This document shows, piece by piece, positions 48,276-63,356 of a DNA stretch of 64,000 nucleotides. The notes under the pieces were generated by a model, which was not told the DNA's origin, did no database searches, and saw only the letters and a list, made by a program, of their open reading frames with translations. The stretch's first letter is position 1; the number at the start of each line of letters is the position of its first letter. Source of the stretch: Aliiroseovarius sp. PrR006 (GTDB taxonomy: Bacteria; Pseudomonadota; Alphaproteobacteria; Rhodobacterales; Rhodobacteraceae); assembly GCF_010500215.1 (NCBI RefSeq), contig NZ_JAAGOY010000007.1, forward strand, positions 838,501 through 902,500, written 5' to 3'. Position numbers and translations under genes: made by a program.

Positions 48276-48298
48276 CCCGCACGGAAAGAGTATAGGAA

Positions 48299-48733
48299 AT
48301 GACCATCAAGACGTGGAGCCTGATCGGGATCGCAGCCCTCATCGTCATCTTTCTTCTGACGCGGGGCGGGTCGAATGACAGGGCAAACCCCGCAGCGGAA
48401 ATTGCCGCAGGTGCGCCGATGGTGACCGTGCAACTGCCTGCCGAGTTGAGCGTAAAGGCGGTGATGGGAAAGCGTGCCTTCGACGCGGTTTGCGCAGACT
48501 GCCACGGGCCCGATGCAGCGGGGCAGCAGGGCATCGCACCGCCGCTTGTGCACAAGATCTATGAGCCCAGCCATCATGCGGATATGGCCTTCGTGCTGGC
48601 TGTACAAAGGGGTGTACCCGCGCATCATTGGGGCTTCGGCAACATGCCGCCGGTCGACGGCTTGACCCGGGCCGATGTTGCGAACATCATTGCTTACGTC
48701 AGAGAATTGCAACGCGAGAACGGGATCAACTGA
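48299..48733 (+). CDS. Monohaem cytochrome c with N-terminal anchor
   Basis: A 144-residue class I cytochrome. Residues 6-21 form a hydrophobic segment followed at once by charged RGG, so it may stay as a membrane anchor rather than be cleaved. Haem motif CADCH at 65-69, axial Met probably in GNMPPVDGL. It likely carries electrons to or from its operon neighbours (multicopper oxidase, dihaem cytochrome). Confidence 0.9.
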   Translation: MTIKTWSLIGIAALIVIFLLTRGGSNDRANPAAEIAAGAPMVTVQLPAELSVKAVMGKRAFDAVCADCHGPDAAGQQGIAPPLVHKIYEPSHHADMAFVLAVQRGVPAHHWGFGNMPPVDGLTRADVANIIAYVRELQRENGIN

Positions 48734-48736
48734 ACG

Positions 48737-49075
48737 GTGCTTGATGAAATGCGCAGATGGGTCGGGCCGATGTTCGTAATGGTCAGCGTATTTGTCGCCA
48801 GCCTGCTTTTGTCAGGTGGCGTTGCTGAAGCGCATGGCACACATGCGCCTTCCGAAACAGCGATCACCAAGCAGTCGGACACCGTTTATTTCGCCGCTGA
48901 CAATCAGGGACACTGCTTTGGAGGTGCCTTCTGTACCGGCCCTGCCATTGTCCAGCACAACTCTTTGCCTGCAGGTGCAATCGCGCATCGCGAGCGCTAT
49001 GCGTTGCCTGGCGAGACTCTGGGCCTTCCCGTCATATCCGGGTTCGATCCACCGCCTCCCCGCCTTCTGAATTGA
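48737..49075 (+). CDS. Small exported hypothetical protein
   Basis: A 112-residue protein. The GTG at 48737 is the longest in-frame start; ATG 48749 is an alternative. A hydrophobic signal (VMVSVFVASLLLSGGVAEA) precedes a His/Thr-rich mature N-terminus (HGTHAPSE). Two Cys (HCFGGAFC) near residue 63-68 could bind a metal or a disulfide. The tail is Pro-rich. No family recognised. Position in the redox operon suggests a periplasmic metal-related role. Confidence 0.65.
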   Translation: MLDEMRRWVGPMFVMVSVFVASLLLSGGVAEAHGTHAPSETAITKQSDTVYFAADNQGHCFGGAFCTGPAIVQHNSLPAGAIAHRERYALPGETLGLPVISGFDPPPPRLLN

Positions 49076-49126
49076 TATCTTCCGCGCGCCGATGGCGTTG
49101 AGAAACAATCCAATCAGGAAAATCCG

Positions 49127-49717
49127 ATGAAAACCAAAAAACTACTCGTGGGCGCAACGGTTGCGTCCGTACTTGCCGTGGCAGGCCAGTCCGTTCTTGC
49201 GCATGGGGGTGCCACGGGCATCGTCAAGGAACGCATGGATGGCATGGGCGTCATGAAAGAGGCCATGAAGGTTCTGACGCCGATGATGCAGGGCAAAGTC
49301 GACTATGACGCCGACGTGGTGCGTGATCGTGCAGGCGACATCAGCCAACATGCCGGAACGACCATGACGAAGCTGTTCCCCGAAGGCAGCACGGATGCCC
49401 CATCCGAGGCGAAGCTGGAAATCTGGCAGGACTGGGAGAGTTTTGCGACGCTGGCCGAGCAATTGCGTGTGATGGCCGACGGGCTGGCCGCGGCGTCCGA
49501 TAACGGGTTGATGATGGCCGGGAACGCGCCTGCTGACGGCAGCATGATGGCTGGCCAAGGGGGCACCATGATGGGCAGTGGCATGATGGGAAGCGGTATG
49601 ATGGGCGGCCAAGGCGTAGGCATGATGGACTTCGCCGATATGCCAGCCGATGGCGTCTTTACCATGATGAGTCAGGTTTGTTCTGCGTGCCACACCCGTT
49701 TCCGGGCTGAGAAATAG
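49127..49717 (+). CDS. Cytochrome c' with methionine-rich insert
   Basis: A 196-residue exported cytochrome of the c'/c556 four-helix type. Signal peptide about 1-25 (ending VLA). The haem motif is at the C-terminus, CSACH at 185-189, as in the family. Helices read VKERMDGMGVMKEAMKVL and WESFATLAEQLRVMADGLA. An extra Met/Gly-rich stretch is inserted at about 127-168, with repeated MM pairs (GTMMGSGMMGSGMMGG). Such stretches bind Cu(I) in copper resistance proteins, so this may be a copper-binding cytochrome. NO or CO binding is usual for the family. Confidence 0.88.
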   Translation: MKTKKLLVGATVASVLAVAGQSVLAHGGATGIVKERMDGMGVMKEAMKVLTPMMQGKVDYDADVVRDRAGDISQHAGTTMTKLFPEGSTDAPSEAKLEIWQDWESFATLAEQLRVMADGLAAASDNGLMMAGNAPADGSMMAGQGGTMMGSGMMGSGMMGGQGVGMMDFADMPADGVFTMMSQVCSACHTRFRAEK

Positions 49718-49726
49718 GCCAAGAAG

Positions 49727-50626
49727 ATGCGCAAACTCTATCGTCTGGGATTGGCTGGGGTGGTGGCTGCCTCGGCCAGCCTGTCGGCACTGATAGCATG
49801 GCCAATAGGCCTCCCCCCCACGCCGATAACGCTGCAGGGCAATGTGGAACGCGGCGCGTATCTTGCGCGCGCATCCGGGTGCATCGCTTGCCACACCGAC
49901 ATCGCTGGCGGAGGCGCGCCCCTTGCCGGGGGGCTAGCCCTTGAGACACCGTTCGGGGCGCTGTATTCCCCAAACCTGACCACTGACCCCGACCATGGGA
50001 TCGGTGGCTGGACTCAAGCTCAGTTTGCCCGCGCTGTGCGCGAAGGGGTCTCGCCCGAAGGGTACGCCTATTACCCGGCCTTTACCTACCCGTTCTATGC
50101 GAACTTCACGGATCAAGAGATCGCCGACCTTTGGGCTGCGTTCCAGACAGTACCCCCCGTCGCCGCGCCGTCGCGTGCGCCCGAAATGCAGTTTCCTTTC
50201 AACCAGCGTTGGGGCTTGAAGCTGTGGCGTGCGGCCTATCTTGAACCACCCCGGACCGAACCCGTGGCAGGCAAAGGCGAGATCTGGAACCGTGGCCGCG
50301 AACTGGTCGAAGGCGCCACCCATTGCGCCGCCTGCCATACGGGGCGGAATTTCGCAGGGGCCCGCAACTCGGATACCGAGCATTTTCAAGGAAGCGACAG
50401 CTTGCCCGGCGGCGAGAAAGCTCCCGCGATTGACCACGATACCCTGATTAGAAGGGGATGGGATGTGGCAAGCCTTGCTTACGCGCTGCGCACCGGCATC
50501 ACGCCCGAGGGCGACGCCTTTGGCGGGACCATGGGCGAGGTTGTACTGTATGGCACAAGCTTTTTGACCGAAGCAGACCGTACCGCCATCGCGACATATC
50601 TGATGGATGAACACGAGGGTGGATAA
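49727..50626 (+). CDS. Dihaem cytochrome c
   Basis: A 299-residue protein with an N-terminal hydrophobic signal or anchor (LAGVVAASASLSALIAW). Two class I domains are seen, with haem motifs CIACH at 52-56 and CAACH at 200-204. The pattern GAPLAGGLALETPFGALYSPNLTTDPDHGIGGWT is typical of the cytochrome subunits of alcohol and sorbose dehydrogenases. Here no dehydrogenase gene is adjacent; a multicopper oxidase follows by 4 bases. It probably transfers electrons in the periplasm between them. Confidence 0.92.
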   Translation: MRKLYRLGLAGVVAASASLSALIAWPIGLPPTPITLQGNVERGAYLARASGCIACHTDIAGGGAPLAGGLALETPFGALYSPNLTTDPDHGIGGWTQAQFARAVREGVSPEGYAYYPAFTYPFYANFTDQEIADLWAAFQTVPPVAAPSRAPEMQFPFNQRWGLKLWRAAYLEPPRTEPVAGKGEIWNRGRELVEGATHCAACHTGRNFAGARNSDTEHFQGSDSLPGGEKAPAIDHDTLIRRGWDVASLAYALRTGITPEGDAFGGTMGEVVLYGTSFLTEADRTAIATYLMDEHEGG

Positions 50627-50630
50627 GCGA

Positions 50631-52031
50631 ATGAACCCAATACAAAAGCCTCAGGGACCAAAACTGAACCGCCGCACATTTCTGGCCGGAGCCGCCGCAC
50701 TCGCTGCGACGCCGGGATTTGTACATGCCGAAACCATGCCTCGGTTGGTGGCCCGCCCTGCGAGTGCGCGCATTCTGCCTGCCGAATACCCCGAGACGCC
50801 GATCTGGGGATATGACGGTGGGGTACCTGGCCCCCTGTTGCGTCTGAAACAGGGCGAACGCTTGACACGCACGCTGGTGAATGAACTGCCACAGCCCACC
50901 TCTGTTCACTGGCACGGGGTGCGGGTGCCGAATGCGATGGACGGGGTGCCGGGTATGACACAGGACGCCGTCGCGCCCGGCGACCAGTTTGACTACGCCT
51001 TTACGCCGCCCGATGCGGGCACATTCTGGTATCACTCACACAACCAATCCACCGAGCAGATCGCAAGGGGGCTTTATGGATTGTTGATTGTCGATGAGGC
51101 CGAACCCCCAGAGGTCGACCACGATATCGCTGTGGTGCTGGATGATTGGCGGCTGCGTGAAAACGGAGAGATCATCGACGATTTCGACCGGATGCATGAC
51201 TGGACCCATGCGGGACGGATCGGAAACTTCGTGCAGGCATCCCTGTTGCCACAGATATCGCAACTGCGCCGCCATGATCGCGTGCGGCTACGGCTGGTCA
51301 ACGTCGCGGTGGACCGCATCATGAAGATCGGCCTTCATGGCCTAAGCGGCGCCATCGTGGCGTTGGACGGAATGCCCCTGCGAACGCCCGAACACACCGA
51401 CCACGTTGTCCTTGGTCCGGCTCAAAGGGCGGATTTCATCGTGGATGTCACTGCTGACGAAGGTGACGAGGCGCTGATTGCAATCCATGAACGTGACGAG
51501 GCCTTCGTACTTGCAGATATCCAGATTTCGGGCACGAGCAGTTCCTCTGCACGTGGGGCAATCAACCCTCTGCCATCCAATCCGCTTGTCCCCCTTGAGA
51601 CAGCACAGGCCACGACCGAGGCACGCTTGATCATGGAAGGCGGCGCGATGGGAGGGCTGCGTCAGGGGATTTGGAAGGGTGAACGCCTGTCGATCCAGCA
51701 ACTGGTCGAACAAGGGCAGGTTTGGACCTTCAACGGCGTCGCAGGTCTGCCCGAAGCTCCATTGGTTGAAGTTGCCGTTGGCGACATCGTCGAAATTCCA
51801 ATGCAGAACGACACGGCGTTTCCACACGCCATGCACCTGCACGGGCACCATTTTCAGGAACGTCTGGCCGATGGCTCGCTTGGTCCTTTGCGCGACACAC
51901 TTCTGATGGATCGCGGGGAAACGCGTAGCATCGTGTTTCGGGCGGACAACCCCGGAGACTGGCTTTTGCATTGCCACATGCTGTCCCACCAAAAGGCAGG
52001 TATGAAAACCTGGATACGGGTGGCCGGATGA
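50631..52031 (+). CDS. Multicopper oxidase
   Basis: A 466-residue periplasmic oxidase. A Tat signal (NRRTFLAGAAALAA) supports export of a folded copper protein. All copper motifs are present: HWH at 93-95, HSH at 135-137, HPMHLH-type set H399, H402, H404, and H447-C448-H449 with H453 and M458, giving type 1, 2 and 3 sites. The type 1 site has the Met ligand. It fits the CueO/CopA (laccase-like) group that oxidises Cu(I) or organics with oxygen. The start is ATG 50631; 50607 is possible. It overlaps the next cytochrome gene by 4 bases. Confidence 0.93.
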   Translation: MNPIQKPQGPKLNRRTFLAGAAALAATPGFVHAETMPRLVARPASARILPAEYPETPIWGYDGGVPGPLLRLKQGERLTRTLVNELPQPTSVHWHGVRVPNAMDGVPGMTQDAVAPGDQFDYAFTPPDAGTFWYHSHNQSTEQIARGLYGLLIVDEAEPPEVDHDIAVVLDDWRLRENGEIIDDFDRMHDWTHAGRIGNFVQASLLPQISQLRRHDRVRLRLVNVAVDRIMKIGLHGLSGAIVALDGMPLRTPEHTDHVVLGPAQRADFIVDVTADEGDEALIAIHERDEAFVLADIQISGTSSSSARGAINPLPSNPLVPLETAQATTEARLIMEGGAMGGLRQGIWKGERLSIQQLVEQGQVWTFNGVAGLPEAPLVEVAVGDIVEIPMQNDTAFPHAMHLHGHHFQERLADGSLGPLRDTLLMDRGETRSIVFRADNPGDWLLHCHMLSHQKAGMKTWIRVAG

Positions 52032-52519
52032 AACGCGGAAAGCTTGTTGCGCTATGCGCTGCCGGGTTGGCGGCCTTCGGCATCGCGATCACGGCCTTCA
52101 GCCCCATGGATGCGCAAGCCCAGCCAGCACAGCAGCCCGTGGACTCGGATCCTGTTGCGGGAAAAGTGCTGTATGCAGAAAGTTGTGCCGCGTGTCATGG
52201 CGCGAAGCTTGAGGGCCAACCCGACTGGCGCACCCCAGACGACGACGGCATCCTTCCTGCCCCGCCCCATGATCAAACCGGTCACACTTGGCACCACGGC
52301 GATGCGTTGCTGTTTGACTATACCAAACGCGGTGGCCAAGCTGCGCTTGAAACGCGTGGTGTATCTGGATTTGTCAGCGGCATGCCGGGGTTCGAAGACA
52401 GTCTAAGCGATCAACAAATCTGGGACATACTGGCCTTCATAAAATCCACCTGGCCTGAGCGCATCCGCCAGATGCAGGCCACACGCACCACAGGTGAACA
52501 AATGCAGGGCGGTTCATGA
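52028..52519 (+). CDS. Monohaem cytochrome c
   Basis: A 163-residue exported cytochrome. Signal residues 1-30 (ending AQA). Haem motif CAACH at 53-57, followed by GAKLEGQPDWRTPDDDGILPAPPHDQTGHTWHHGD. Axial Met in VSGMPGF. This form is common next to copper oxidases and copper resistance genes. ATGA overlap with the multicopper oxidase makes co-production clear. Confidence 0.92.
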   Translation: MKRGKLVALCAAGLAAFGIAITAFSPMDAQAQPAQQPVDSDPVAGKVLYAESCAACHGAKLEGQPDWRTPDDDGILPAPPHDQTGHTWHHGDALLFDYTKRGGQAALETRGVSGFVSGMPGFEDSLSDQQIWDILAFIKSTWPERIRQMQATRTTGEQMQGGS

Positions 52520-52612
52520 TTGCCCGGCCCGACCAATGCCATGACATGGCGCGGCGGCCTCGGCCTTGAAAGCCAAGATCATGCCGTCTGCGCGAACAAC
52601 AAAGGAAAAGAC

Positions 52613-53089
52613 ATGACCAACCCGACACTTGACCGGCGCCTGTTTCTTGCGGGGCTTGGCGCCTCTTGCATCGGACTTGCCACACCGGCGATTGCCTCGT
52701 CTCGCCCGCTGATACAGGTTCTGAAGGACCCGGATTGCGGCTGCTGTGGCGCATGGATGGCAATCATGCAGCAAGAAGGTTTCGACTTGGAAGTCCAGAA
52801 TGCCTCGTGGGACGCCCTGTCGCACTATAAGGAAACGAACGGCATCCCGCAGGACATGGTGTCGTGTCATACCGGCGTGGTGAACGGGTACTTCATCGAA
52901 GGGCATGTACCCGCCGCTGACATCCGTCGCTTGCTGGCCGAGCGCCCTGACGCGGTGGGGCTGTCCGTTCCCGGAATGCCCTTTGGTTCACCCGGCATGG
53001 GGCCTGAGAACGAGCGAGAAGCCTATGCCGTCTACCTGATCCGCAAGGATGGCAGCACCGAGGTGTTCAACAACTACGACGCCGCCTGA
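52613..53089 (+). CDS. DUF411 exported metal-binding protein
   Basis: A 158-residue protein. The twin-arginine-like signal (RRLFLAGLGASCIGLATPAIA) starts at ATG 52613 (AAAGGAAAAG before it). The DUF411 motif KDPDCGCCGAW near 37-46 has a Cys-x-Cys-Cys site, and SCHTG lies near 83. Family members occur in copper and metal resistance clusters, as thioredoxin-like proteins. It is convergent with the Crp/Fnr gene and overlaps it by 16 bases. Confidence 0.88.
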   Translation: MTNPTLDRRLFLAGLGASCIGLATPAIASSRPLIQVLKDPDCGCCGAWMAIMQQEGFDLEVQNASWDALSHYKETNGIPQDMVSCHTGVVNGYFIEGHVPAADIRRLLAERPDAVGLSVPGMPFGSPGMGPENEREAYAVYLIRKDGSTEVFNNYDAA

Positions 53090-53676
53090 TTGGTGCGTTT
53101 TAGACGATAGACGCCGCGGGCGGGGCGTTCGACCTGCCCGTCGCGTACCAGATCCGACAGCACACGAAAGACGACCTCGTGGCTCAGCCCAAGGTCGCTG
53201 GCGAAAGCCACCACCGTTCCGGTCATCCACCCATCCGCAAGGCCCGCAAGAACCCGGTCCCGCGCAGACCGGATCGCCAGCAGCTCCTGCTTGCGGCGAT
53301 AAGACTGGACTTGCGCCGAAAGCCGTTGAACCAGACCGATTGCAAAAGTAGTGTTCTCAGTCATGGCGCCCAGCACGATGGCCTTGTCGAGAACACGAAC
53401 CGTGCTGTCCCGGTCAGCGATGGCGTCACAGTGATAATGGTCGCTGAATAGCGATGGCTCGGCCAGCGTGTCGCCTGACCCTGCCCTGAACATCGTGACC
53501 AGCTGCCCCGCTTCCGTGTGGCGCACCAGACGCACCTCTCCTTGTTCAACAAAGAACATGCCGCGCGCCCTATCGCCCTGATGAAACAGATGCTCTCCGC
53601 ACGTCAAACTGCGGCGCGGCAGATCGGACAGGGGTAGGCCATCAAATGGCGCAGGGAGTGGGATCAAATCGCTCAT
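53074..53676 (-). CDS. Crp/Fnr-family regulator
   Basis: A 200-residue protein with an N-terminal cyclic-nucleotide-binding-like beta roll (GEHLFHQGDRARGMFFVEQGEVRLVRH) and a C-terminal HTH (VVAFASDLGLSHEVVFRVLSDLVRDGQVERP). The Fnr cysteines for an Fe-S cluster are absent; only Cys26 and Cys83-type residues are seen. The signal is unknown. It probably controls the redox/copper genes around it, and itself through the palindrome next to its start codon. Confidence 0.9.
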   Translation of the reverse strand: MSDLIPLPAPFDGLPLSDLPRRSLTCGEHLFHQGDRARGMFFVEQGEVRLVRHTEAGQLVTMFRAGSGDTLAEPSLFSDHYHCDAIADRDSTVRVLDKAIVLGAMTENTTFAIGLVQRLSAQVQSYRRKQELLAIRSARDRVLAGLADGWMTGTVVAFASDLGLSHEVVFRVLSDLVRDGQVERPARGVYRLKRTNQAAS

Positions 53677-53678
53677 TG

Positions 53679-53690
53679 TGATTCAAATCA
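53679..53690. promoter_or_regulatory. Palindrome TGATT-CA-AATCA, candidate Crp/Fnr site
   Basis: A 12-base palindrome two bases before the regulator's start codon. It resembles an FNR/CRP half-site pair with shortened spacing. It could block translation or transcription of the regulator, and lies upstream of the divergent His-rich gene. The role is inferred. Confidence 0.4.
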
Positions 53691-53752
53691 TATTCAATTG
53701 GCCAAATAGGTACCACCATTTTGGGGCTACACATTCGATCAAGAGGTCAATC

Positions 53753-54292
53753 ATGGTCCGACACACGATATTCGCGGTCGTCACATTGTTTTCGGCCGCG
53801 CCGATTTACGCACAGCACAGTCACGACCATTCGGGTGATATGCCGCAGACCGTCTTGCCTGCCGAGCCCGGTCAGGGCGCGTTTGCCGCGATTGCCGAGA
53901 TCGTTGCCTTGCTGCGCGCCGACCCAGAAACAGATTGGTCGGCGGTCGATATTGCGGCCCTGCGCCAGCATCTGATCGACATGGATGACTTGGTGACGCA
54001 TGCCGAAGTGACAACAGAAGACGTGCCAAAAGGCGCACGGTTCCACGTGCAAACCACCGGTGCTGGAGGAGGCGCGGTATCCCGCATGGTCCCTGCGCAT
54101 GCGCCGGTGTTAAGTGCTGACACGGGCTGGACAAGTCAGGTGCTTTTGAACGGGGATGAAATTGTTTGGACCGTTACCTCATCGAAAGACGCTGAGATAA
54201 TCCGGGCGCTGGGCTTCTTCGGCCTTATGGCCATTGGAAATCACCACCAACCCCATCACTTGGGGATGGCGACAGGTTCCATGGCGCATTGA
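53753..54292 (+). CDS. Exported histidine-rich hypothetical protein
   Basis: A 179-residue protein. ATG 53753 opens a signal peptide (FAVVTLFSAAPIYA), and the mature protein begins HSHDHSGDM, a metal-binding style His cluster. The C-terminus has NHHQPHHLGMATGSMAH. In between is an acidic helical part with no known motif. It is next to the Crp/Fnr gene (divergent) and the copper genes (convergent with copZ, one base apart). Copper or other metal binding in the periplasm is likely. Confidence 0.75.
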   Translation: MVRHTIFAVVTLFSAAPIYAQHSHDHSGDMPQTVLPAEPGQGAFAAIAEIVALLRADPETDWSAVDIAALRQHLIDMDDLVTHAEVTTEDVPKGARFHVQTTGAGGGAVSRMVPAHAPVLSADTGWTSQVLLNGDEIVWTVTSSKDAEIIRALGFFGLMAIGNHHQPHHLGMATGSMAH

Positions 54293-54293
54293 T

Positions 54294-54494
54294 CTAAACC
54301 AAAATTGTCGCTGGATAGCCTTCCTTGGCAAGTATGGCGAGCAGTTCGTGATCCGTTATTTCACTGGTGATTCTGACCTCGTGGGCGTCGAGGTCAAACG
54401 CCAGTTGCGCCTGCCCATCTGCGGTTAGAACAGCTTTCTCGATCACGGCTTTACAGTGTCCGCAGCTCATGTCGGGGACGTGGAATCTACGCAT
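54294..54494 (-). CDS. copZ: Copper chaperone (HMA domain)
   Basis: A 66-residue single heavy-metal-associated domain. The metal site is C11 and C14 in MSCGHC. The remaining strand-helix pattern (AVIEKAVL, AFDLDAHEVRI) is normal. It carries Cu(I) in the cytosol to CopA or to CueR. It is divergent from copA; a CueR-type operator lies 40 bases upstream. Confidence 0.93.
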   Translation of the reverse strand: MRRFHVPDMSCGHCKAVIEKAVLTADGQAQLAFDLDAHEVRITSEITDHELLAILAKEGYPATILV

Positions 54495-54533
54495 TCAAGG
54501 GCTCCTCTTGTGGCTTCACGGTTGCAGGTGGGG

Positions 54534-54554
54534 CTTCCCATGGGGGAAGGTCAA
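54534..54554 (-). promoter_or_regulatory. CueR-type operator of copZ
   Basis: On the minus strand, TTGACC (54549-54554, a -35 element) leads into the palindrome CTTCCC-CCAT-GGGAAG at 54534-54549. This matches the MerR/CueR layout, where the regulator sits in a long 19-base spacer. The -10 element is not clear. Confidence 0.75.
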
Positions 54555-54581
54555 TGCTCAAGAAAACGTGATGTTCGGCCC

Positions 54582-54612
54582 TTGACCCTCCCCTTACTGG
54601 AACCCCCATGTT
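54582..54612 (+). promoter_or_regulatory. CueR-type promoter of copA
   Basis: TTGACC (54582-54587), then 19 bases with a partial dyad (CCTCCCC and GGAACC), then CATGTT (54607-54612) as -10. The 19-base spacing is the hallmark of MerR-family promoters. It supports starting copA at 54644, since the ATG at 54608 would lie within the -10. Confidence 0.7.
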
Positions 54613-54643
54613 CGACTCGAATACCCGGTTAGTGGAGGGTCCC

Positions 54644-57154
54644 ATGTCCGAGAAATCCCAAATCCGGCTGTCCGTGGACGGCATGTCCTGCGCATCTTGT
54701 GTCAGCCGCGTCGAAAAGGCTTTGACGACCGTTCCAGGCGTCGATAGCGCTGCGGTCAATCTGGCCTCCGAAAGCGCTGACATCGTGTTTTCCGAACCCG
54801 CAACCCTGACGGCCTTGGCTGACGCGCTAGAGCAATCCGGATACCCGGCCCAGATGGCCGAGGTCACACTGCAAATCGAAGCAATGACCTGTGCAAGCTG
54901 TGTCAGCCGTGTCGAGCGTGCCTTGACCGCGGTGCCCGGAGTTCTGACCGCATCGGTCAATCTGGCCACCGAAACTGCGCATGTAAGATACGCCGAAGGG
55001 GTCGTCGCTCCAGCGGACTTGGCCCGTGTGGCAAGTGACTTGGGCTATCCGGCACAGGTCAAGCAAGGAAGCGATCCCGATAAGGCGAGCCGAAAACTGG
55101 CCGAGATCACCCGGCTGGGGCAACTTACATTTGTGGCTGCCATACTGGCTCTGCCCGTCTTTGTGATTGAAATGGGCAGCCATCTGTTTCCGGCCATGCA
55201 CATGTGGATCGAACGCAGCATTGGCATGCAGACCAGCCGCCTTCTGCAGTTCGTATTGACGACGATCGTGCTATTCGGGCCCGGGTTGCGCTTCTACACC
55301 AAGGGGTTTCCGCTGCTGTTTCGGGGCGCTCCAGACATGAACTCTCTGGTCGCTTTGGGGACCTCGGCGGCCTACGGCTTTTCAGTCGTTGCAACCTTTG
55401 CACCCAGCCTGCTGCCCGAGGGCACAGCAAATGTCTATTTCGAGGCTGCGGCAGTGATTGTCGTTTTGATCCTTCTGGGCCGTTGGCTTGAGGCACGCGC
55501 TAAGGGCCGCACCGGCGAAGCGATCCGCAAACTGATCGGGCTACAGGCCAAAACGGCCCGGGTCGAACGGGGTGACGACATCGTTGAAGTTCCGATTGAT
55601 GACATAGCAGTGGGCGACGTGATCCATGTACGCCCCGGTGAAAAAATCGCCGTCGACGGAAAAGTCCTGTCTGGAAGCTCTTATGTTGACGAAAGCATGA
55701 TCACCGGCGAGCCGGTTCCAGTAGAAAAAACTGCTGGGGCCGAAGTGGTCGGGGCCACCGTGAACGGCACTGGCGCGCTGCGCTTCCGGGCGACCAAGGT
55801 GGGTGCCGACACGATGCTGGCCCAGATTATTCAGATGGTGGAACAGGCGCAGAGCGCGAAGCTGCCGATTCAGGGTCTGGTGGATAGAATTACCGCTTGG
55901 TTCGTTCCTGCCGTTATGGGCGTGGCTGCAGTGACCATCGTGGCCTGGCTGATCTTCGGCCCCGATCCCGCGCTGAGCTTCGCTCTGGTCGCAGGGGTTG
56001 CGGTCCTGATCATTGCCTGCCCCTGCGCAATGGGTCTGGCGACCCCCACCTCGATCATGGTGGGCACGGGACGCGCCGCCGAGCTTGGGGTGTTGTTTCG
56101 CAAAGGTGACGCGTTGCAAATGCTGGGCGAAACACAGGTGGTTGCTCTGGACAAGACCGGCACGCTGACCGCCGGGAGGCCGGAACTGACCGACCTGATT
56201 GTGGCAGATGGCTATGATCGTGATGAAGTCTTGCGGGTTGTTGCGGCCGTTGAAGCCGGATCCGAGCATCCGATTGCCGAGGCCATCCTGCGGGCGGCCG
56301 ACGGGCGTGGTCTGTCCCTTCCAACCGTCGAGAAATTCGCGTCAATCACAGGATACGGAGTCACCGCGACTGTGGAAGGGCGGCACATTCTGATCGGCGC
56401 GGACCGACTGATGGCGCGTGACGGCATTGACCTGGGCAAGCTCGGCAACACCGGAACCGAGCTGGGGCAGCAAGGACGCACCCCACTTTATGCCGCGATC
56501 GACGGCAAGATTGCCGCCGCCATCGCCGTATCGGACCCGATCAAACCCACGACACCCGCAGCGATTAACGCTCTGCACGATTTGGGTTTGAAAGTCGCCA
56601 TGATCACAGGCGACAATCAGGGCACAGCTGATGCCATCGCGCGCAGTTTGGGCATCGATCAAGTCGTGGCCGAGGTGCTGCCCGAGGGTAAGGTTACGGC
56701 CCTTGGCAACCTGCGGGAACGTGGCAAACTGGCCTTTGTCGGGGACGGGATCAACGATGCCCCTGCCTTGGCCTCGGCCGATGTGGGGATCGCCATTGGT
56801 ACCGGCACCGACGTGGCCATCGAAGCCGCAGATGTGGTGCTGATGTCCGGCGATCTGACCGGCGTGGTCAACGCGTTCGACATTTCGGCCCGGACCATGC
56901 GCAACATTCGCCAGAACCTGTTCTGGGCTTTCGGCTACAATACACTCCTGATCCCGGTGGCCGCCGGGGTGCTATATCCTACGTTTGGCCTGCTTCTGTC
57001 ACCGGTTCTGGCCGCCGGTGCAATGGCGCTGTCCAGCGTGTTCGTCCTGTCAAACGCCTTGCGACTGCGCTGGGTCAGGCCTGCAATTGGTGCAGACGCA
57101 TTGCCATCAGCCACGCGCCCAGCGACTTTGAAACCTGCCACCGCCGCCAACTGA
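54644..57154 (+). CDS. copA: Copper-exporting P-type ATPase
   Basis: An 836-residue P1B ATPase that pumps Cu(I) out of the cytosol. Two N-terminal HMA domains have C16/C19 (MSCASC) and C83/C86 (MTCASC). About eight membrane helices follow. The ion site is C459-P-C461, the phosphorylated Asp is D503 in DKTG, and the SEHP motif and GDGINDAP lie further on. ATG 54644 has a GGAGGG site. cueR follows by 13 bases. Confidence 0.97.
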
Positions 57155-57167
57155 AGGGGAGGCTACC

Positions 57168-57569
57168 ATGAACTTGAACATCGGAGATGTGTCCAAACGC
57201 ACCGGTCTTCGCGCAAAGACCATTCGTTACTACGAGGATATCGGTCTGGTTAAACCGCTTAGGGATACAAACGACTACCGTGTCTTTCGCGAAATCGACC
57301 TGCACAAGCTGACCTTTCTCAGCCGCGCGCGCGCCTTGGGCTTTACCATTGATGATTGCCGAAACCTTCTTGCCCTCTACGAGGATGAAACACGCGCCAG
57401 TGCAGATGTGAAAGAGATCACAAGCAAGCACTTGAAAGAGATCGAGGCGAAAATCAATGATCTTCAAGCCATGCACGCCACGCTGAGCCATCTGTCTAAA
57501 GAGTGTGCAGGCGACCACCGCCCTGATTGCCCCATTCTTGAAGGTCTCAGCGGTGAGGACCGCCGCTAG
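57168..57569 (+). CDS. cueR: Copper-responsive MerR-family regulator
   Basis: A 133-residue activator. HTH residues 4-40 (IGDVSKRTGLRAKTIRYYEDIGLVKP). The metal loop has C113 and C121 (CAGDHRPDC), spaced by seven, matching the Cu(I) site of E. coli CueR. It should act on the two operators between copZ and copA when copper rises. It is downstream of copA, so regulated in the same transcript. Confidence 0.95.
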   Translation: MNLNIGDVSKRTGLRAKTIRYYEDIGLVKPLRDTNDYRVFREIDLHKLTFLSRARALGFTIDDCRNLLALYEDETRASADVKEITSKHLKEIEAKINDLQAMHATLSHLSKECAGDHRPDCPILEGLSGEDRR

Positions 57570-57571
57570 GC

Positions 57572-57724
57572 TCGCCTGATGGGCTGGTCGGCGGCGTCTT
57601 CACAAACGGCGTCAGCAAGGAAGAAATCCGCGCGATCATCCATGTCATCGGGATTTATTGTGGCGTGCCACAGGCACTGGAGTGTTTCCGCGCGGCCCGC
57701 AAGGTGCTGGAAGAAAGCGAATAA
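57572..57724 (+). pseudogene. Fragment of a carboxymuconolactone decarboxylase-type gene
   Basis: Only the 3' end is left, about 48 codons ending at TAA 57722-57724. It reads GLVGGVFTNGVSKEEI, then AIIHVIGIYCGVPQALECF, a typical end of the AhpD/carboxymuconolactone decarboxylase family. No start codon or upstream part is present; it begins just after cueR. This is a truncated remnant that marks a past rearrangement at the end of the copper genes. Confidence 0.75.
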
Positions 57725-57754: not shown

Positions 57755-58390
57755 CTAGTTCCGGGAAGCTTCTTGGTCCGGCTTTGGGGGATTCATCCAC
57801 AGCACGACGAGGCGCGCAAGAAGGATGAGGCCGAACGTTACAAGTGTCGCCGTCGATTCCCCCATAAACTGGGAGAACGCCAAATAGGCGGCACCTCCTG
57901 CCAACGAGATCGTAGCATACAGGTCTTCACGCAAGACGCTTGGGGTAATGTTGCACAAGAGATCTCGGATCATGCCACCGGCCGTGCCAGTCACGCAACC
58001 GATCACAATCGTCAGAACCGGCGCCACACCGGCCTCTAGCGCGACTTGAACACCGGTCAGGGTGAACAGCGCCAATCCGACCGCATCCAGATACATCAGA
58101 AGTGCAAGCCGCCGCCCGTTGCCTGTCGGCATGCGTGCGGCGATAAGGAAACTCAATAGCGAAGACGGGACCGCCACCAGAAGAAAGCGCAAGTCCGAGA
58201 TCCAGAACACAGGGGTCAGCCCCAGAAGCACATCACGTAACGTGCCACCGCCAACAGCAGTGACAACACCCAGAACAGTCGCGCCGAACAGATCAAGGTT
58301 GAAGCGGCGCGCCTGGATTGCAGCCGAGGCCGCCATCACTGCAGTTGCGATCAGCGAGAGCGGCACGAAGAGGAGTGTAAGCGATTCCAT
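57755..58390 (-). CDS. TRIC-type cation channel family protein (UPF0126)
   Basis: A 211-residue membrane protein with seven hydrophobic helices in two related halves; each half has the glycine-rich signature (VTAVGGGTLRDVLLG near 47 and VTGTAGGMIRDLLCN near 130). Bacterial members form trimeric potassium or other cation channels. ATG 58390 is used; TTG 58399 is possible. It lies alone, convergent with the copper region. Confidence 0.9.
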   Translation of the reverse strand: MESLTLLFVPLSLIATAVMAASAAIQARRFNLDLFGATVLGVVTAVGGGTLRDVLLGLTPVFWISDLRFLLVAVPSSLLSFLIAARMPTGNGRRLALLMYLDAVGLALFTLTGVQVALEAGVAPVLTIVIGCVTGTAGGMIRDLLCNITPSVLREDLYATISLAGGAAYLAFSQFMGESTATLVTFGLILLARLVVLWMNPPKPDQEASRN

Positions 58391-58599
58391 CACTTGCAAC
58401 TTAGCCGTCGCAGGCAGCGGTGACGATTGATTTTACCTTCAGCTCATCGCTGGCCGTTTTCGATACGGATGATGGTCCGGGATCGCAATCTGACAAAACG
58501 CTGACACTCTCATTCAGGAATTTGACGCGTCCGAACTGCTATCAGGGGTTGAGGCGTCCGAATCAATGGCGCCGGAACGAAAAGTAAAGGACAGAGCAC

Positions 58600-58929
58600 A
58601 TGACCAAAGAAGACGACAAGGTATTTTCCCGGCGCAAGGCGCTGACCCGCATTGGTGGGCTGGCATTGGCCGCCTATTCGGTACCGGCGCTGACCACGCT
58701 GTCGGCTGCACACGCATCGTCCGCTCCGTCGGCGGCAAGTGCTGCGTCGGAAGCCAGTGATCCATCGCCTGCAAGTGACCCGTCCGAGGCAAGCGAGCCG
58801 TCCGAAGCAAGCGTACCGTCCGAGTCCAGCGGCCCCAGCGGTCCCCGTGTGGTAACGGCTGAAGAATGCGAAGCCGGCGGCGGCACCGTTGTTGAACGCG
58901 AAGACGGTGTTAAAGTTTGTGAAAGCTAA
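58600..58929 (+). CDS. Small Tat-exported serine-rich protein
   Basis: A 109-residue protein. The Tat signal is SRRKALTRIG (10-19) with a hydrophobic part and an AHA-type cleavage near 39. Residues 40-83 are low-complexity Ser, Ala, Pro and Glu (SEASDPSPASDPSEASEPSEAS). The last 25 residues hold two Cys, in EECEAGGGTVVEREDGVKVCES. The N-terminal 40 residues match those of the serine-rich protein at 60290-60829, and both flank a kinase-like/PqqD gene. It may be a substrate modified by that protein. No known family. Confidence 0.7.
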   Translation: MTKEDDKVFSRRKALTRIGGLALAAYSVPALTTLSAAHASSAPSAASAASEASDPSPASDPSEASEPSEASVPSESSGPSGPRVVTAEECEAGGGTVVEREDGVKVCES

Positions 58930-58958
58930 ATTGATCCAGGATATCCCCACCTGATCAA

Positions 58959-58991
58959 TGGCCTGCCCGCATATCGGTTGTGGGCAGGCCA
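58959..58991 (+). terminator. Hairpin after the first serine-rich gene
   Basis: A perfect 10-bp stem (TGGCCTGCCC with GGGCAGGCCA) and 13-base loop, 29 bases after the stop codon. No T tract. It may stabilise the small gene's message, giving more of it than the genes downstream. Confidence 0.5.
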
Positions 58992-59051
58992 GATTGCGTT
59001 GACGCGCACGGGGAAATCGCTGGTATGATCAGCGACAAGTAGGAGCGGAGC

Positions 59052-60293
59052 GTGGTGGAACCGCAATATGTGCACTTTGAAGGACTGAAGCCTCCCGTCG
59101 CGTTGGAAAACGCAGACGAGGTTGCAGCGATGTTGCCTACGGTCCTGTCTGCTTGGCCGCACCACACCCTGAACACTCCACCAAGCAATCCACCCTTCGT
59201 GACCATCCGTCCCGCCGGACCAGACCGCTGGCACGTGATCCGCGCAGACCAGCCCGACACGCCCCGCACCTGGGATGGGGTCAACACGGTCTGCGACATC
59301 ATCGCCGAAATGGCGTGGGAGCGGTTGCGCTCGGACCCGGACCTTCTGTGTCTGCACGCCGCAGCAATTGAGTTTAATGGGCGTCTTGTGGTGATGCCAA
59401 ATGCCAGACGCGCTGGCAAAAGCACCTTGGCTATTGCCTTGGCGCGTCTGGGTAGACCCCTGTATTCCGACGATTTTCTGCCTGTCCGCGTGGATGCCAA
59501 GACCCAAAGCTGCGCAGGCATCGCGAACGGCATTCAACCGCGCCTGCGGTTGCCTGTGCCCGAAGGCTTCAGCGACGCGTTTCATACCGACGTTGCCCAG
59601 GATCCGGGCCCGTCCAACCGGCAATACAAATACCTTTCCAATGCACCGGTTGCCCCATGGGGCGAGACCATGCCCTTAGGCGCGATGGTGATGCTCGAGC
59701 GTAGCGACGCGCCGCAGCCGCCGCAGCTCAGCCCGATGGAGCGCGAAGACGCGCTGGCCAGCCTGATCACGCAAAACTTCGCCCGCACGCGCCATGCCGG
59801 GGCGATCCTGCGGTCGGTCGACCTTTTATCGCGCCACTTGCCGATCTATCGGCTGAGCTATCATTGCGCCGAAGAGGCCGCCGAATACCTGTCAACCCAT
59901 CCCGACCTGGCAAACCTTCCGGCCGCGCAACTGACCGATTTTGCACAGGATGACCGTCAGGCCCCGCTTGATCAGCCGATCCACCCTGCCCTCGCCTTCG
60001 TCAAAGAGCTTTGTTATGCACAGGCCGATGGCGTAACCGAAAGCGTGGTGGGGGACGAAGCGTTTTTGGCCGACGGATCCGGGATTGGCATTTTCCGACT
60101 GAACCCAGTGTCGGCAGCGATCTGGAACCTGCTGGAAGAACCGACCGACCTGAACGAGATCGTCGAGATTTTATCCGAGGCCTTTCCCGACGTGCCGGTC
60201 GACCAGATTTCCACAGACAGCGAGAACCTGATGCGCAGCTTGGCCCGCGCGCGTCTGATTACTCCTGCACCCCAAAGCGTGGCGGCACAATGA
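59052..60293 (+). CDS. HPr-kinase-like/PqqD fusion protein
   Basis: A 413-residue protein starting at GTG 59052 (with GGAGCGGAG before). Residues 60-250 are like the nucleotide-binding domain of HPr kinase: a degenerate Walker A NARRAGKST with K123, and SDD at 139-141 (RPLYSDDFLPV), but not the sugar system partners. Residues 334-405 are a PqqD-like peptide-binding (RRE) domain: GIFRLNPVSAAIWNLLEEPTDLNEIVEIL. PqqD domains hold precursor peptides for modifying enzymes. It is flanked by two Tat-exported serine-rich proteins, the nearest one overlapping by four bases. Serine phosphorylation of these is an attractive but unproved idea. Confidence 0.82.
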   Translation: MVEPQYVHFEGLKPPVALENADEVAAMLPTVLSAWPHHTLNTPPSNPPFVTIRPAGPDRWHVIRADQPDTPRTWDGVNTVCDIIAEMAWERLRSDPDLLCLHAAAIEFNGRLVVMPNARRAGKSTLAIALARLGRPLYSDDFLPVRVDAKTQSCAGIANGIQPRLRLPVPEGFSDAFHTDVAQDPGPSNRQYKYLSNAPVAPWGETMPLGAMVMLERSDAPQPPQLSPMEREDALASLITQNFARTRHAGAILRSVDLLSRHLPIYRLSYHCAEEAAEYLSTHPDLANLPAAQLTDFAQDDRQAPLDQPIHPALAFVKELCYAQADGVTESVVGDEAFLADGSGIGIFRLNPVSAAIWNLLEEPTDLNEIVEILSEAFPDVPVDQISTDSENLMRSLARARLITPAPQSVAAQ

Positions 60294-60829
60294 GTGACGG
60301 CAAGCGCATATCACGCCGCGCCGCGTTGATCCGGCTAGGATTGGGGGCCGCCAGTGCTTATATGGCCCCCAGCATTGTCGGACTAAGTCAGGCGCGCGCA
60401 TCGTCTTCTAGCGCATCCTCTTCGTCCAGCCCCGCCTCTTCTTCGTCCTCGGTCAGCCCGGTGTCACCGCCTACTCCAGCCAGCGCATCCAGTGAACCGA
60501 GCGGTCCGGACGGTGGAGCTCCGACCAGCGCAAGCGGACCCAGCGGACCGGGAACCTGCCGAAGTTCTCCTATCACTGGGAACGCCCAGATTTCGCGCCA
60601 GGACTATCAACGCGCCCAACGCGCGATTACGCGCGGCAAGGCGCGGCCGCTACAAGAGATCTTGAAAAACGTACAATCCAAACAGCCGGGCAAGTTGCTG
60701 CAAGTCGGGTTTTCTGACACAGGAAAGCAAACGAAGTTTAGAGTGCTGATCGTTGATCAGTCCGGCGCGGTCGTCTCGGTCTCGGTTGATGCGGGCTCGG
60801 GGCGGATCACAAGCATACGGAAGTGCTGA
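60290..60829 (+). CDS. Tat-exported serine-rich protein with PepSY-like domain
   Basis: A 179-residue protein whose ATG overlaps the stop of the kinase-like gene. Tat signal SRRAALIRLG (8-17), cleavage region near 37 (AYMAPSIVGLSQARA). Residues 38-88 are Ser, Pro and Gly-rich tracts (SSSASSSSSPASSSSS, SGPSGPG). From about 100 a PepSY-like fold is seen: ISRQDYQRAQRAITRGKARPLQEIL, then KFRVLIVDQSGAVVSVSVDAGSGRI. Two Cys, at the linker (GTC) and the last residue, could pair. PepSY domains often regulate two-component sensors, and the next genes encode one. Confidence 0.78.
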   Translation: MSDGKRISRRAALIRLGLGAASAYMAPSIVGLSQARASSSSASSSSSPASSSSSVSPVSPPTPASASSEPSGPDGGAPTSASGPSGPGTCRSSPITGNAQISRQDYQRAQRAITRGKARPLQEILKNVQSKQPGKLLQVGFSDTGKQTKFRVLIVDQSGAVVSVSVDAGSGRITSIRKC

Positions 60830-61495
60830 ATGCGTATCCTCATCGTGGAAGACGAACAGAAGATCGCCGAGCTGATCGCAGATGTTCTGGAAGGTGAGGG
60901 GCTGATCCCCGAAATCGCAAATGATGGCGAGCAAGGCTGGTTTCTGGGCAGCACCGAAAGCTATGCCGCGGCCATCCTCGATATTGGCCTGCCCACGCGC
61001 GACGGCCTGTCTGTGTTGCGCGCCTGGCGGGACGAAGGGCTGGACCTGCCCGTGATCCTGCTGACCGCTCGCGCGAACTGGAACGAGCGGGTCGAAGGGA
61101 TCGACGCGGGTGCGGATGATTATCTGGGCAAGCCCTTCCAGATGGAGGAGCTGATCGCGCGTCTGCGCGCCCTGTTGCGCCGGTCGACCGGCCAGAAGGC
61201 CACGATCCTTGAAGCCGGATCGCTGCGGGTGGATCTGCGGCAGATGCGTGTCTCGGTTGACGGACGTCCGTTGAAAGTCACGCCCTTGGAATATCGGCTG
61301 TTGAACTATCTGCTGCATCATCGCGGCGAGGTGGTGACCCAGGAAGAGCTGGTCGAGAATATCTATTACCGGGATCAGGAACCTGACAGCAACGCGGTCG
61401 AGGTTCTGGTCGGGCGCCTGCGTCGCAAGATCGGCGGCGGGGTAATCGAAACACGTCGCGGGTTCGGATACATAATCGCCGGGGAAGACGCATGA
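60830..61495 (+). CDS. OmpR-family response regulator
   Basis: A 221-residue regulator. Receiver with phosphoacceptor D51 (AILDIGLP), VEDE acidic pair and conserved Lys in LGKPFQMEEL. Winged helix from about 125, with RRKIGGGVIETRRGFGYII. Starts right after the stop of the PepSY-type gene (TGA-ATG) and overlaps the kinase gene by 4 bases. It belongs to the PhoP/FeuP-like branch by general look. Confidence 0.95.
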   Translation: MRILIVEDEQKIAELIADVLEGEGLIPEIANDGEQGWFLGSTESYAAAILDIGLPTRDGLSVLRAWRDEGLDLPVILLTARANWNERVEGIDAGADDYLGKPFQMEELIARLRALLRRSTGQKATILEAGSLRVDLRQMRVSVDGRPLKVTPLEYRLLNYLLHHRGEVVTQEELVENIYYRDQEPDSNAVEVLVGRLRRKIGGGVIETRRGFGYIIAGEDA

Positions 61496-62847
61496 AGCTA
61501 TCCCTGAGCCTTCGCCTGTTGCTGGCCGCCGCCATGACAACAGCGATTGCCTTGGTGGCCACCGCCATCGTCTTTAACTTCCTGTTTCGTCTCTATTTCG
61601 AAGACCGCGCACGGGACGAGCTTGAGACCTATCTGATCCAGCTCAGCGGGAATGTCTCGGCCACCGCTGAGGGCACGATCGAGGTCACTCCGATCCCCGA
61701 CCCGCGCTTCAATCAGGTGCTGTCCGGCTATTACTGGCAAGTGCAGATTGATGACGCCGAACCGCTTCTATCGCCATCCTTCTGGGCCGCACCGCTGGAA
61801 CTGGCCCGTCCGCAAACCGCAGGATTAATCACTTTCATCGACGTGACAACAGGCAGCGGAGATGCCGTCGCCGTGGCCAGCTGGATCATCACGATGGGTG
61901 ACGGCGACACGCGGAAAGAGGTCTTTCTAGCCGTGGCAATCGACCGGGCGGATCTGGATATGTCTGTCTCTCGGTTCACGACGAATTCGGTTTTCTGGCT
62001 GGGCATCTTGGGGCTGTTCCTAATGATCGCCAGCTGGTTTCAAGTGCGCCTTGGCCTCAAGCCGCTACAGAAAATCCAGTCCGAGATCGCCCATGTGTCC
62101 CACACCCCAAACGGGCGGCTGTCGTCGGACTATCCGTCCGAGGTTCTGCCGCTGGTCGAAGAGGTAAATCAGCTTCTGAACGTCAATGCCGAGGCGCTGG
62201 AACGCGCCCGCTCGCGTGCTGGCGATCTGGCCCACGGACTGAAGACCCCGCTGACGATCATGCATGGGATCGAGCGCAAGGTGCGGCGGTCTGGCCAAGA
62301 TAAACTTGCCGACGACCTAATGACGGAAGTCACCAGCATTCAACACATCGTCGAACGGGAACTGGCCTCGACCCGCGACAGTCAGCAGGCGCTGCTGAAA
62401 TGCGATGCAGGCCCGATTATCGACCGCCTGCGCAAAGCACTTGGCCGCCAACCCGGCACCGAGCACATCCAGTGGCAAATCGACCTCCCCCGTCCTCTGT
62501 ATCTGCCCTTTGACGAATACGACCTGACCGAGCTTCTGGGCAATCTTCTGGACAACGCAGTGAAGTGGTCGGGCAGCCGGATTGCCGTGCGTGGCGGGCA
62601 AGATCAAATGCAGGTGTATCTAAGCGTCGAAGACGACGGCCCCGGCATCCCGAAAGAAGAACGCGATGCGGTGCTGGCGCGCGGGACTCGGCTGGACCCG
62701 GACCAGCCGGGTACGGGTTTGGGGCTGAGTATCGCACAGCGCATGGCCGAGGCACATGGCTGCGCCCTGTCGCTGGATCAGTCCGATTTGGGCGGCGTGA
62801 AGGTGTGCTTGATACGCCCCAGCGATGCGCCATCAGACGGGATATGA
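61492..62847 (+). CDS. Sensor histidine kinase
   Basis: A 451-residue inner membrane kinase. Helices at about 7-32 and 165-185 flank a periplasmic domain of roughly 130 residues. The phosphorylated His is H248 in LAHGLKTPLT (a FeuQ/PhoQ-like box). ATPase motifs are DNAVKWSGSR, EDDGPGIP and GTGLGLSIA. It is the partner of the regulator just upstream. The periplasmic domain could be where the PepSY-type protein or a metal signal acts. Confidence 0.93.
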   Translation: MKLSLSLRLLLAAAMTTAIALVATAIVFNFLFRLYFEDRARDELETYLIQLSGNVSATAEGTIEVTPIPDPRFNQVLSGYYWQVQIDDAEPLLSPSFWAAPLELARPQTAGLITFIDVTTGSGDAVAVASWIITMGDGDTRKEVFLAVAIDRADLDMSVSRFTTNSVFWLGILGLFLMIASWFQVRLGLKPLQKIQSEIAHVSHTPNGRLSSDYPSEVLPLVEEVNQLLNVNAEALERARSRAGDLAHGLKTPLTIMHGIERKVRRSGQDKLADDLMTEVTSIQHIVERELASTRDSQQALLKCDAGPIIDRLRKALGRQPGTEHIQWQIDLPRPLYLPFDEYDLTELLGNLLDNAVKWSGSRIAVRGGQDQMQVYLSVEDDGPGIPKEERDAVLARGTRLDPDQPGTGLGLSIAQRMAEAHGCALSLDQSDLGGVKVCLIRPSDAPSDGI

Positions 62848-62969
62848 TGCAGCTGGCAACGGAAACACTGCGCGCCAGTTCTTTTAGGTCGACATCCGCC
62901 GCGATAATGTGGAACGTGATGACGACCTCGCTGATGTGCCACTCTAACGACCAGAAAAGGCGAAACGAT

Positions 62970-63356
62970 ATGGTTCTGCCCAAGATCACGAAACTCTTCG
63001 CAGCACTTGCGGTTGCGCTCGCCACGACTGGGACCGCCATCGCCCATGAAAGCCCCGATCACCAAGGGCGTCACGGCGGAAAGGTGAACATTACGCAGCA
63101 CAACCATATCGAGCTGGTACGTTCAGAAAACGAGATTGCGATCTATCTGTATGATCTGGAGCTGCAACCGCGTGATGCCCAGAACATCACCGTCGACGCA
63201 CTGTTGGTGGACGGCACCGCTCAGACCGATCTGGACCTGCAATTCACCCCCCCAAACAAATTCGCCGCCGAGGGGGTTTCAGCCCCCAAATCGGCTGCGA
63301 TTGTATTGCGCCTGTTTCGCGACGGGGCGTTCTGGGATCTGACGCGCATCAAATAA
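62970..63356 (+). CDS. Small exported HGG-type protein
   Basis: A 128-residue protein from ATG 62970 (AAAAGG before it). Signal peptide about 1-25 (ending AIA). The mature start HESPDHQGRHGGKVNITQHNHIELVRSENEIAIYLYD is rich in His and matches the HGG...H-x-E-L-V...Y-L-D pattern seen in many metal-efflux-linked periplasmic proteins. The rest is beta-rich. A heavy-metal link is plausible, so the two-component system may sense metal. A 120-base gap from the kinase leaves room for its own promoter. Confidence 0.75.
   Translation: MVLPKITKLFAALAVALATTGTAIAHESPDHQGRHGGKVNITQHNHIELVRSENEIAIYLYDLELQPRDAQNITVDALLVDGTAQTDLDLQFTPPNKFAAEGVSAPKSAAIVLRLFRDGAFWDLTRIK

Follow-up and report, generated by a model that had tools for sequence, protein, structure and literature searches.

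The closest described relatives of the system reported here are the LPP clusters of Bacillota (PMC13381572), which combine an HprK-like kinase, a PqqD-like recognition element (RRE) of the ribosomally synthesized and post-translationally modified peptides (RiPPs), a leader with a YxxPx-hydrophobic motif and variable C-termini, and have no macrolactam cyclase. Phosphorylation of serine has been demonstrated in LPP. The LPP clusters have a separate RRE, the signal-peptidase-like (SipW-like) LppS, a nucleoside triphosphate (NTP) transferase and an MsbA-like exporter, and the product carries one phosphoserine. In contrast, in the system described here, found in a stretch of 64,000 nucleotides from Aliiroseovarius sp. 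PrR006 (the window), the kinase and RRE are fused, the leader is a predicted twin-arginine translocation (Tat) signal, the tracts are repeats, and PepSY and S8-protease proteins are among those that bear the leader. The genes scanned at 57755-63356 encode no SipW-like peptidase, NTP transferase or MsbA-like exporter.

The gene for the fusion and the two genes flanking it, designated S1 and S2, form a conserved cassette. The fusion is probably an RRE-guided HprK-type kinase that phosphorylates Ser and Thr residues of these predicted Tat-exported proteins before they leave the cell. A first-pass annotation had suggested that the fusion binds the leaders or the tails of the small proteins and phosphorylates their serine tracts before export. 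In the computational analysis, the leader version received strong indirect support, because the RRE is of the lasso/LPP type, the leaders carry the YxxPx-hydrophobic motif, the HprK residues are invariant, leader and kinase co-occur even when their genes are not adjacent, and Ser/Thr recur with a period of three, while the tail version found no support.

Paeninodin-type lasso peptides (PadeK/ThcoK; PMC9266682) also involve an HprK-type kinase (the kinase class is named in PMC13381572) that acts on a serine of the precursor, but PadeK modifies the C-terminal serine, whereas here the tract follows the leader. A lasso peptide cluster was rejected, since the genes scanned at the locus include no macrolactam cyclase or B2 protease. 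Bufferins and other RiPPs modified by multinuclear non-heme iron oxidases (MNIO; PMC12452194) and DAG-RiPPs (PMC12636315) likewise have a cleavable export signal on the precursor; they differ in using an MNIO oxidase and the Sec or lipoprotein route, in place of a kinase, Tat and Ser/Thr. HprK-type Ser kinases acting on precursors, RREs, and Sec or lipoprotein signals on RiPPs are already known. The literature searched, which comprised the main text of openly available papers, contained no Tat signal serving as RiPP leader, no RRE-HprK fusion, and no Ser-repeat arrays or protein-sized substrates of an HprK-type kinase. The available part of the RRE-Finder paper (PMC7470986) has no mention of 'kinase' and that of PMC12710340 none of 'HPr', 'Tat' or 'phospho'; PMC10584327 concerns an RRE-containing cluster of a marine alphaproteobacterium and, in the part available, has no bearing on this system.

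The fusion protein, its leaders and the serine tracts

The fusion gene (59052-60293, + strand) has a GTG start and encodes a protein of 413 residues, with AGKS at residues 121-124, DD at 140-141 and the RRE at approximately 320-405. The AlphaFold2 model had a pLDDT of 90.4 and a pTM of 0.86. Foldseek matched the front part of the model to PEPCK and HPr kinase, and a profile of 23 homologues compared with PDB sequences matched the P-loop region to HPr kinases. The front of the fusion is, as modeled, an HprK/PEPCK fold with His, GKS and DD in place. His102, Gly122-Lys123-Ser124, Asp140, Asp141, Arg164, Arg166 and Arg217 were invariant in 25 of 25 homologues. HprK-related kinase A (TIGR04352), which goes with PqqD_rel_X (TIGR04353), belongs to the same kinase superfamily, and 23 of the 23 fusions scanned matched it at E <= 0.01; membership of the window fusion (E=1.1e-10) was nevertheless rejected, as it scored 41.1 bits and the curated cut-off is 200 bits.

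The C-terminal part matched the Pfam PqqD family (PF05402, E=2.9e-13). However, in the PDB profile search with the same 23 homologues, TbiB1 (1.5e-7), LppB (7.3e-6), PbaB1 (5.8e-5) and TfuB1 (4.2e-4), all leader-binding RREs, outranked the PqqD entries (0.021 and 0.041), so that a reading as a pyrroloquinoline quinone (PQQ) chaperone was rejected. Foldseek aligned the back of the model with the TbiB1-leader complex (5v1v) at a target TM score of 0.84 and a root-mean-square deviation (rmsd) of 1.5. This part is nearer to the leader-binding RREs of lasso and LPP systems than to the PqqD of PQQ synthesis. Of the P-loop/SDD kinase and PqqD domain first assigned to the fusion, the kinase-like region was confirmed, with AGKS and DD intact but Asn as the first Walker A residue, and the PqqD label was revised. 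In LppB, Asp70 hydrogen-bonds the leader Tyr and Asn33 fixes the Pro kink (PMC13381572); by profile alignment, these residues correspond to Asp389 (Asp in 24 of 25 homologues) and Asn351 (Asn in 23 of 25) of the fusion.

S1 (58600-58929, + strand, 109 residues) contains SRRKALTRIGGLALAAYSVPALTTLSAAHAS, followed by a Ser tract and a C...C end, and matched the leader hidden Markov model with E=7.7e-17. Its leader, residues 1-39 through an A-x-A site placed by eye, is encoded at 58600-58716 (+). S2 (60290-60829, + strand, 179 residues), whose ATG overlaps the stop codon of the fusion gene, consists of a leader, a Ser tract, a PepSY-like domain and two Cys. The common leader plan, Ser tract and Cys that had been noticed in the two small proteins were thus borne out. 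Both are predicted Tat substrates on the basis of a twin-arginine signal, a hydrophobic stretch and an A-x-A site. The sequences YSVPAL of S1 (58675-58692, +) and YMAPSI of S2 (60359-60376, +) both lie within the hydrophobic stretch of the Tat-like signal.

Lasso RREs recognize [Y/W]xxPx[L/V/I/A/F/Y], and the Tyr and Pro of LppA are needed for efficient complex formation (PMC13381572). In an alignment of 44 leaders from 34 loci, chosen by similarity and omitting L113, L125, L129, the second copy in L116 and a spurious match in L120 (L-numbers denote fetched loci and G-numbers genomes, G000 being that of the window), the only invariant columns were the two Arg, the Tyr and the Pro. The sixth motif residue was Leu in 23, Met in 9, Phe in 6, Val in 4 and Ile in 2. 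Three leaders with an apparent spacing of 10 from the twin arginine to the Tyr are an artifact of counting from the nearest of two Arg pairs. A YxxPx[V/L]-type leader beside a kinase and an RRE is the mark of an LPP-type precursor, and the window has this arrangement with Leu and Ile as the sixth residues. When the genome of the window was searched with a Tat model, [Y/W]xxP occurred within 32 residues of the twin arginine in none of the 21 matches, about 19 of which are credible (L196 and L202 look false).

In the first 50 or fewer mature residues of 49 precursors, a set that omits L113, Ser/Thr recurred at lag 3 with a frequency of 0.664 compared with 0.347 in shuffled sequences (z=21), and lags 6 and 9 were likewise raised. 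The residues around the tract Ser/Thr range from acidic (SEP) to basic (SRP, SRG), and both TCN and AGY codons are used for Ser in 45 of the 49 precursors. Other lineages have a short mature part, in which a single P-[S/T] often stands ahead of a Cys; among 25 mature segments inspected by eye, 24 had Ser/Thr in the first 13 residues, 19 had P[S/T] and 18 had Ser/Thr near a Cys. L213-L232 and L164 encode very short leader proteins with endings such as PSPCPPP, many of them far from kinase genes, that are possibly minimal phospho-peptides. At L055 (8223-9593), an exported protein with a Ser tract has as its neighbor an HprK-like kinase in which no RRE was detected, and the leader of this exported protein has no YxxP. 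This single case divides as the model predicts, the tract going with the kinase and YxxP with the RRE, and may be a natural control.

Co-occurrence of leader and kinase

All 24 loci with a fusion score of at least 70 bits (the window, L001 and L032-L053) encode a leader protein upstream of the fusion. Of six lower-scoring loci (L054-L059), only L055 had an S1-like neighbor.

In the family, 22 of 296 genomes had a single match that covered the kinase together with all or most of the RRE, and one more, G111, had it in two pieces. The leader model was applied to 199 of these genomes, presumably G000-G198, and gave matches at E <= 1.2e-8 in all 20 with the fusion and in none of the 179 without it, where the best E value was 6.2e-5 and 15 genomes had weak matches up to 0.01. 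Since the model was built from these leaders, the informative part of the result is the absence elsewhere, together with two extra leader proteins encoded far from the fusion: G023 has an S8 protease (L174) and G183 a protein with Ser repeats (L175).

In the class, the kinase profile was matched at 1e-15 in 43 of 387 genomes. Besides G000, the leader was present in 33 of the 42 kinase-positive genomes (E <= 3.0e-7) and in none of 42 kinase-negative controls at E <= 0.001; 13 of these controls are under 2 Mb and most come from the unlisted remainder of the class kinase search. Ten of the 33 had contributed leaders to the model and 23 had not. The leader and kinase genes were non-adjacent in 16 of the 33, none of which was in the model.

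A search of the phylum by leader alone (299 genomes) returned seven genomes at <= 3.3e-8, namely G000, G426, G317, in which the kinase is 40 kb away, and four new ones, G909, G715, G747 and G896, each with a kinase-RRE fusion scoring above 300 bits directly 3' of the leader gene. Three of these lie outside the class. Five weaker leader matches (2.6e-6 to 1e-4) came from genomes without a full fusion match. In other families the kinase and RRE are separate adjoining genes. The one close relative of the fusion found in a scan of genome contigs is 87% identical and belongs to an uncultured Aliiroseovarius that keeps the gene order S1, fusion, S2, response regulator, histidine kinase. G840, from the genus of the window, has neither leader nor kinase, which indicates that the system is accessory. 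The genome of the window measures 3.2 Mb.

Accessory modules and limits of the unit

S2 is followed by genes for a response regulator (60830-61495, + strand; top NCBIfam score PmrA, under the cut-off) and a sensor histidine kinase (61492-62847, + strand; top score PhoQ, under the cut-off), which directly adjoin or overlap the set as originally reported. The separate PepSY-type gene also reported was not found; it is the C-terminal region of S2 that is PepSY-like (Pfam 15.1 bits against a cut-off of 24, E=0.029). The model of S2 is confident from about residue 100 (pLDDT >90). Its top Foldseek match was the PepSY-fold protein YpmB (2gu3; E=5e-3, rmsd 1.8).

S2 was present in 8 of the 24 loci, all of which also have the response regulator and histidine kinase at >= 300 bits. 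None of the 16 loci without S2 has this pair, although L049 and L051 carry distant regulator-kinase pairs upstream. The two-component system, initially counted as a core part, is thus an accessory that goes with S2. In L037 (10246-12070), S2 is split by a transposase gene (Pfam), with the C-terminal piece downstream. The PepSY part was also matched in 12 fusion-free genomes, seven of which had loci examined. All seven proteins adjoin a related response regulator and histidine kinase; their N-terminus is short, the YxxP leader and the Ser tract are absent, and the mature domain contains no Cys. S2 thus has the appearance of a known sensor partner to which the tag was added.

In L045, L046, L174, L080 and L081, another module joins the leader to an S8 protease (Pfam). 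A divergent sigma factor gene lies beside this module in L045, L046 and L080 (Pfam) and in L081 (annotation), and in L174 the leader-bearing protease is far from the fusion. The S1 gene of L081 (5380-5960), which lies on a plasmid of Paracoccus marcusii, carries no annotation, and the record shows it with a broken frame. A cytidylyltransferase gene immediately precedes the leader gene in L128 (6385-7149) and L129 (9603-10331), and in L034 (5296-6168) an NTP transferase gene lies upstream of S1, among apparent nucleotide-sugar genes. In other alphaproteobacterial families (L124, L126, L128-L131 and L234), a sensor-regulator gene pair, presumably RegB/RegA-like, occurs near the kinase genes; that of L124 is supported by Pfam.

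The gap between S1 and the fusion gene (58930-59051) contains a strong predicted hairpin (predicted fold -53.7 kcal/mol), with a long inverted repeat at 58960-58990 that possibly limits read-through. The hairpin perhaps permits an excess of S1 over the fusion. An attenuator hairpin common to the relatives was rejected, since the stems beat every shuffle in some loci only; that scan, restricted to loops <=12 with no G-T pairs, misses the long stem of the window itself. A promoter and terminator scan found no promoter on the + strand, and terminators were no commoner than in shuffled sequences.

The unit had been drawn as far as 63356. The gene at 62967-63356, whose product is small with a signal-like start and a His-rich stretch, matched nothing in Pfam and nothing in NCBIfam at better than 0.15; none of the 29 fetched loci compared has a homologue of it, and the unit accordingly ends at 62847, after the sensor kinase. 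Upstream of the system, the region 48000-57600 has a G+C content above that of the preceding 10 kb and encodes a multicopper oxidase, a heavy-metal P-type ATPase and a MerR regulator (Pfam). A general link of the system to copper was rejected, as the gene neighbors of the relatives look unrelated.

Proposed phosphorylation before export and its alternatives

From the computed gene set, folds, motif, catalytic residues, co-occurrence and periodicity, we infer binding, phosphorylation, an order of steps, Tat export and an effect on the sensor as follows. The C-terminal RRE would dock on Y-x-x-P-x-[L/I] inside the Tat signal of each small protein, S1 and S2, and this peptide would then serve both for export and as a RiPP-type leader. 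The kinase, with its PEPCK/HprK fold, would phosphorylate Ser/Thr of the tract right behind the leader, a step placed in the cytoplasm because ATP is there. The bound RRE may mask the signal until phosphorylation is complete; masking of the signal until modification has been suggested for RiPPs with Sec signal peptides (PMC12452194). The modified proteins would then exit by Tat, the leader would be cut at A-x-A, and proteins bearing phosphoserine arrays would reach the periplasm. S2 may act as PepSY partner to the two-component system beside it, and its modification may tune the output of that system; such tuning of the sensor kinase by the exported products is plausible.

Several observations weigh against this proposal. 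The pocket Asp and Asn of the RRE may be common among PqqD domains generally. LppK modifies one Ser (Ser3 of the core) and not an array (PMC13381572). Met at motif position 6, seen in 9 of the 44 leaders, falls outside the published consensus; the extra leader protein of L175 has Thr in place of Pro, L113 differs in the spacing from the twin arginine to the Tyr, and in L231 the first 13 mature residues include neither Ser nor Thr. Since the tracts are related to one another and repeat expansion may lengthen them, the value z=21 overstates independence. Of the 16 non-adjacent gene pairs, eight are on the same contig 24-42 kb apart and therefore loosely linked, six are on different draft contigs and two are >100 kb apart. 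Moreover, 9 of the 42 kinase-profile-positive class genomes have no leader, so relatives of the kinase without a leader gene do exist; seven of the nine have a match to the P-loop core (six genomes, including the contig-edge fragment of G671) or to the RRE (one) only, and the remaining two, G382 and G448, match the N-terminal kinase part, with no RRE seen in the regions around it.

The specificity of the motif also has limits. Of 13 readable weak leader matches from fusion-free genomes (15 loci), ten have no motif, but the other three (G723, G727 and G792, from one genus) bear YFAPLL with the same spacing in a Tat signal, and none of these genomes matched the fusion profile at 1e-5. The three signals are those of loci L168, L170 and L171, and the carrier in G727 is a molybdopterin-type enzyme. 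The YxxP motif in a Tat signal is rare, not exclusive, and because such signals exist in kinase-free genomes, the motif alone is no proof of an RRE partner.

It is unlikely, although conceivable, that the phosphate is only a first step that other enzymes extend to a glycosyl- or nucleotidyl-phosphate, or that the fusion adds another ATP-dependent mark. A kinase and an NTP transferase yield a phospho-hexose on a lasso peptide, and the pair is typical of LPP clusters (PMC13381572, PMC9266682); nucleotidyltransferases also belong to pseudomycoidin clusters. The cytidylyltransferase near the leader gene in L128 and L129 and the NTP transferase near S1 in L034 would agree with such an extension. 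However, no nucleotidyltransferase is among the genes of the window's unit (no profile search was aimed at it in the other loci), and the NTP transferase of L034 appears to sit with nucleotide-sugar genes.

The location of the motif in the signal peptide would also suit a fusion that is mainly a Tat-proofreading chaperone, with an RRE that retains the signal until the substrate is ready and a kinase fold that works as a nucleotide switch, without transfer. The Walker A sequence of the window begins with Asn (consensus [GA]xxxxGK[ST]), AGKS and DD being intact, and the first residue in the 25 homologues is Asn in 11, Gly in 10, Ala in 3 and Ser in 1. This variation, which leaves a residue other than Gly in 15 of 25, counts against the proposed kinase and in favor of a switch. 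The invariant His, GKS, DD and three Arg nevertheless speak against a pure switch, as does a Ser/Thr period kept while the adjoining residues shift from acidic to basic, and we regard the chaperone as improbable. Finally, it is very improbable that S1 and S2 are Tat proteins of the usual kind whose linkers have low complexity, adjacency being inherited and the kinase acting on something else, such as the sensor kinase: YxxPxL does occur in Tat signals without a kinase (three genomes of one genus) and tracts can lengthen by slippage, but 179 family and 42 class kinase-free genomes gave no strong leader match, leader and kinase co-occur in 16 non-adjacent pairs, and the two-component system is missing from 16 of 24 loci.

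With RRE-guided phosphorylation before export as the preferred reading, a broader one may be put forward tentatively. The locus may represent a widespread proteobacterial system that writes phospho-Ser/Thr arrays on exported proteins, a single stretch directing both export and modification and its tag of leader and Ser tract having been grafted onto proteins unrelated to each other, namely a PepSY regulator, S8 proteases and tiny Cys peptides, with the phosphorylated PepSY protein setting the output of the two-component system.

If the proposal is true, the locus would be a case, undescribed within the literature searched, in which a Tat signal peptide serves at the same time as RiPP leader, and RRE-guided phosphorylation, described for small Bacillota peptides, would also cover proteins that Proteobacteria export. 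A reason for using Tat would be that an ATP-dependent modification must precede export. The system would also allow tests of what prevents premature export, a question posed for RiPPs with signal peptides (PMC12452194), and it would suggest a function for genes at present annotated only as 'PqqD family protein' (six plasmid records) or as hypothetical.

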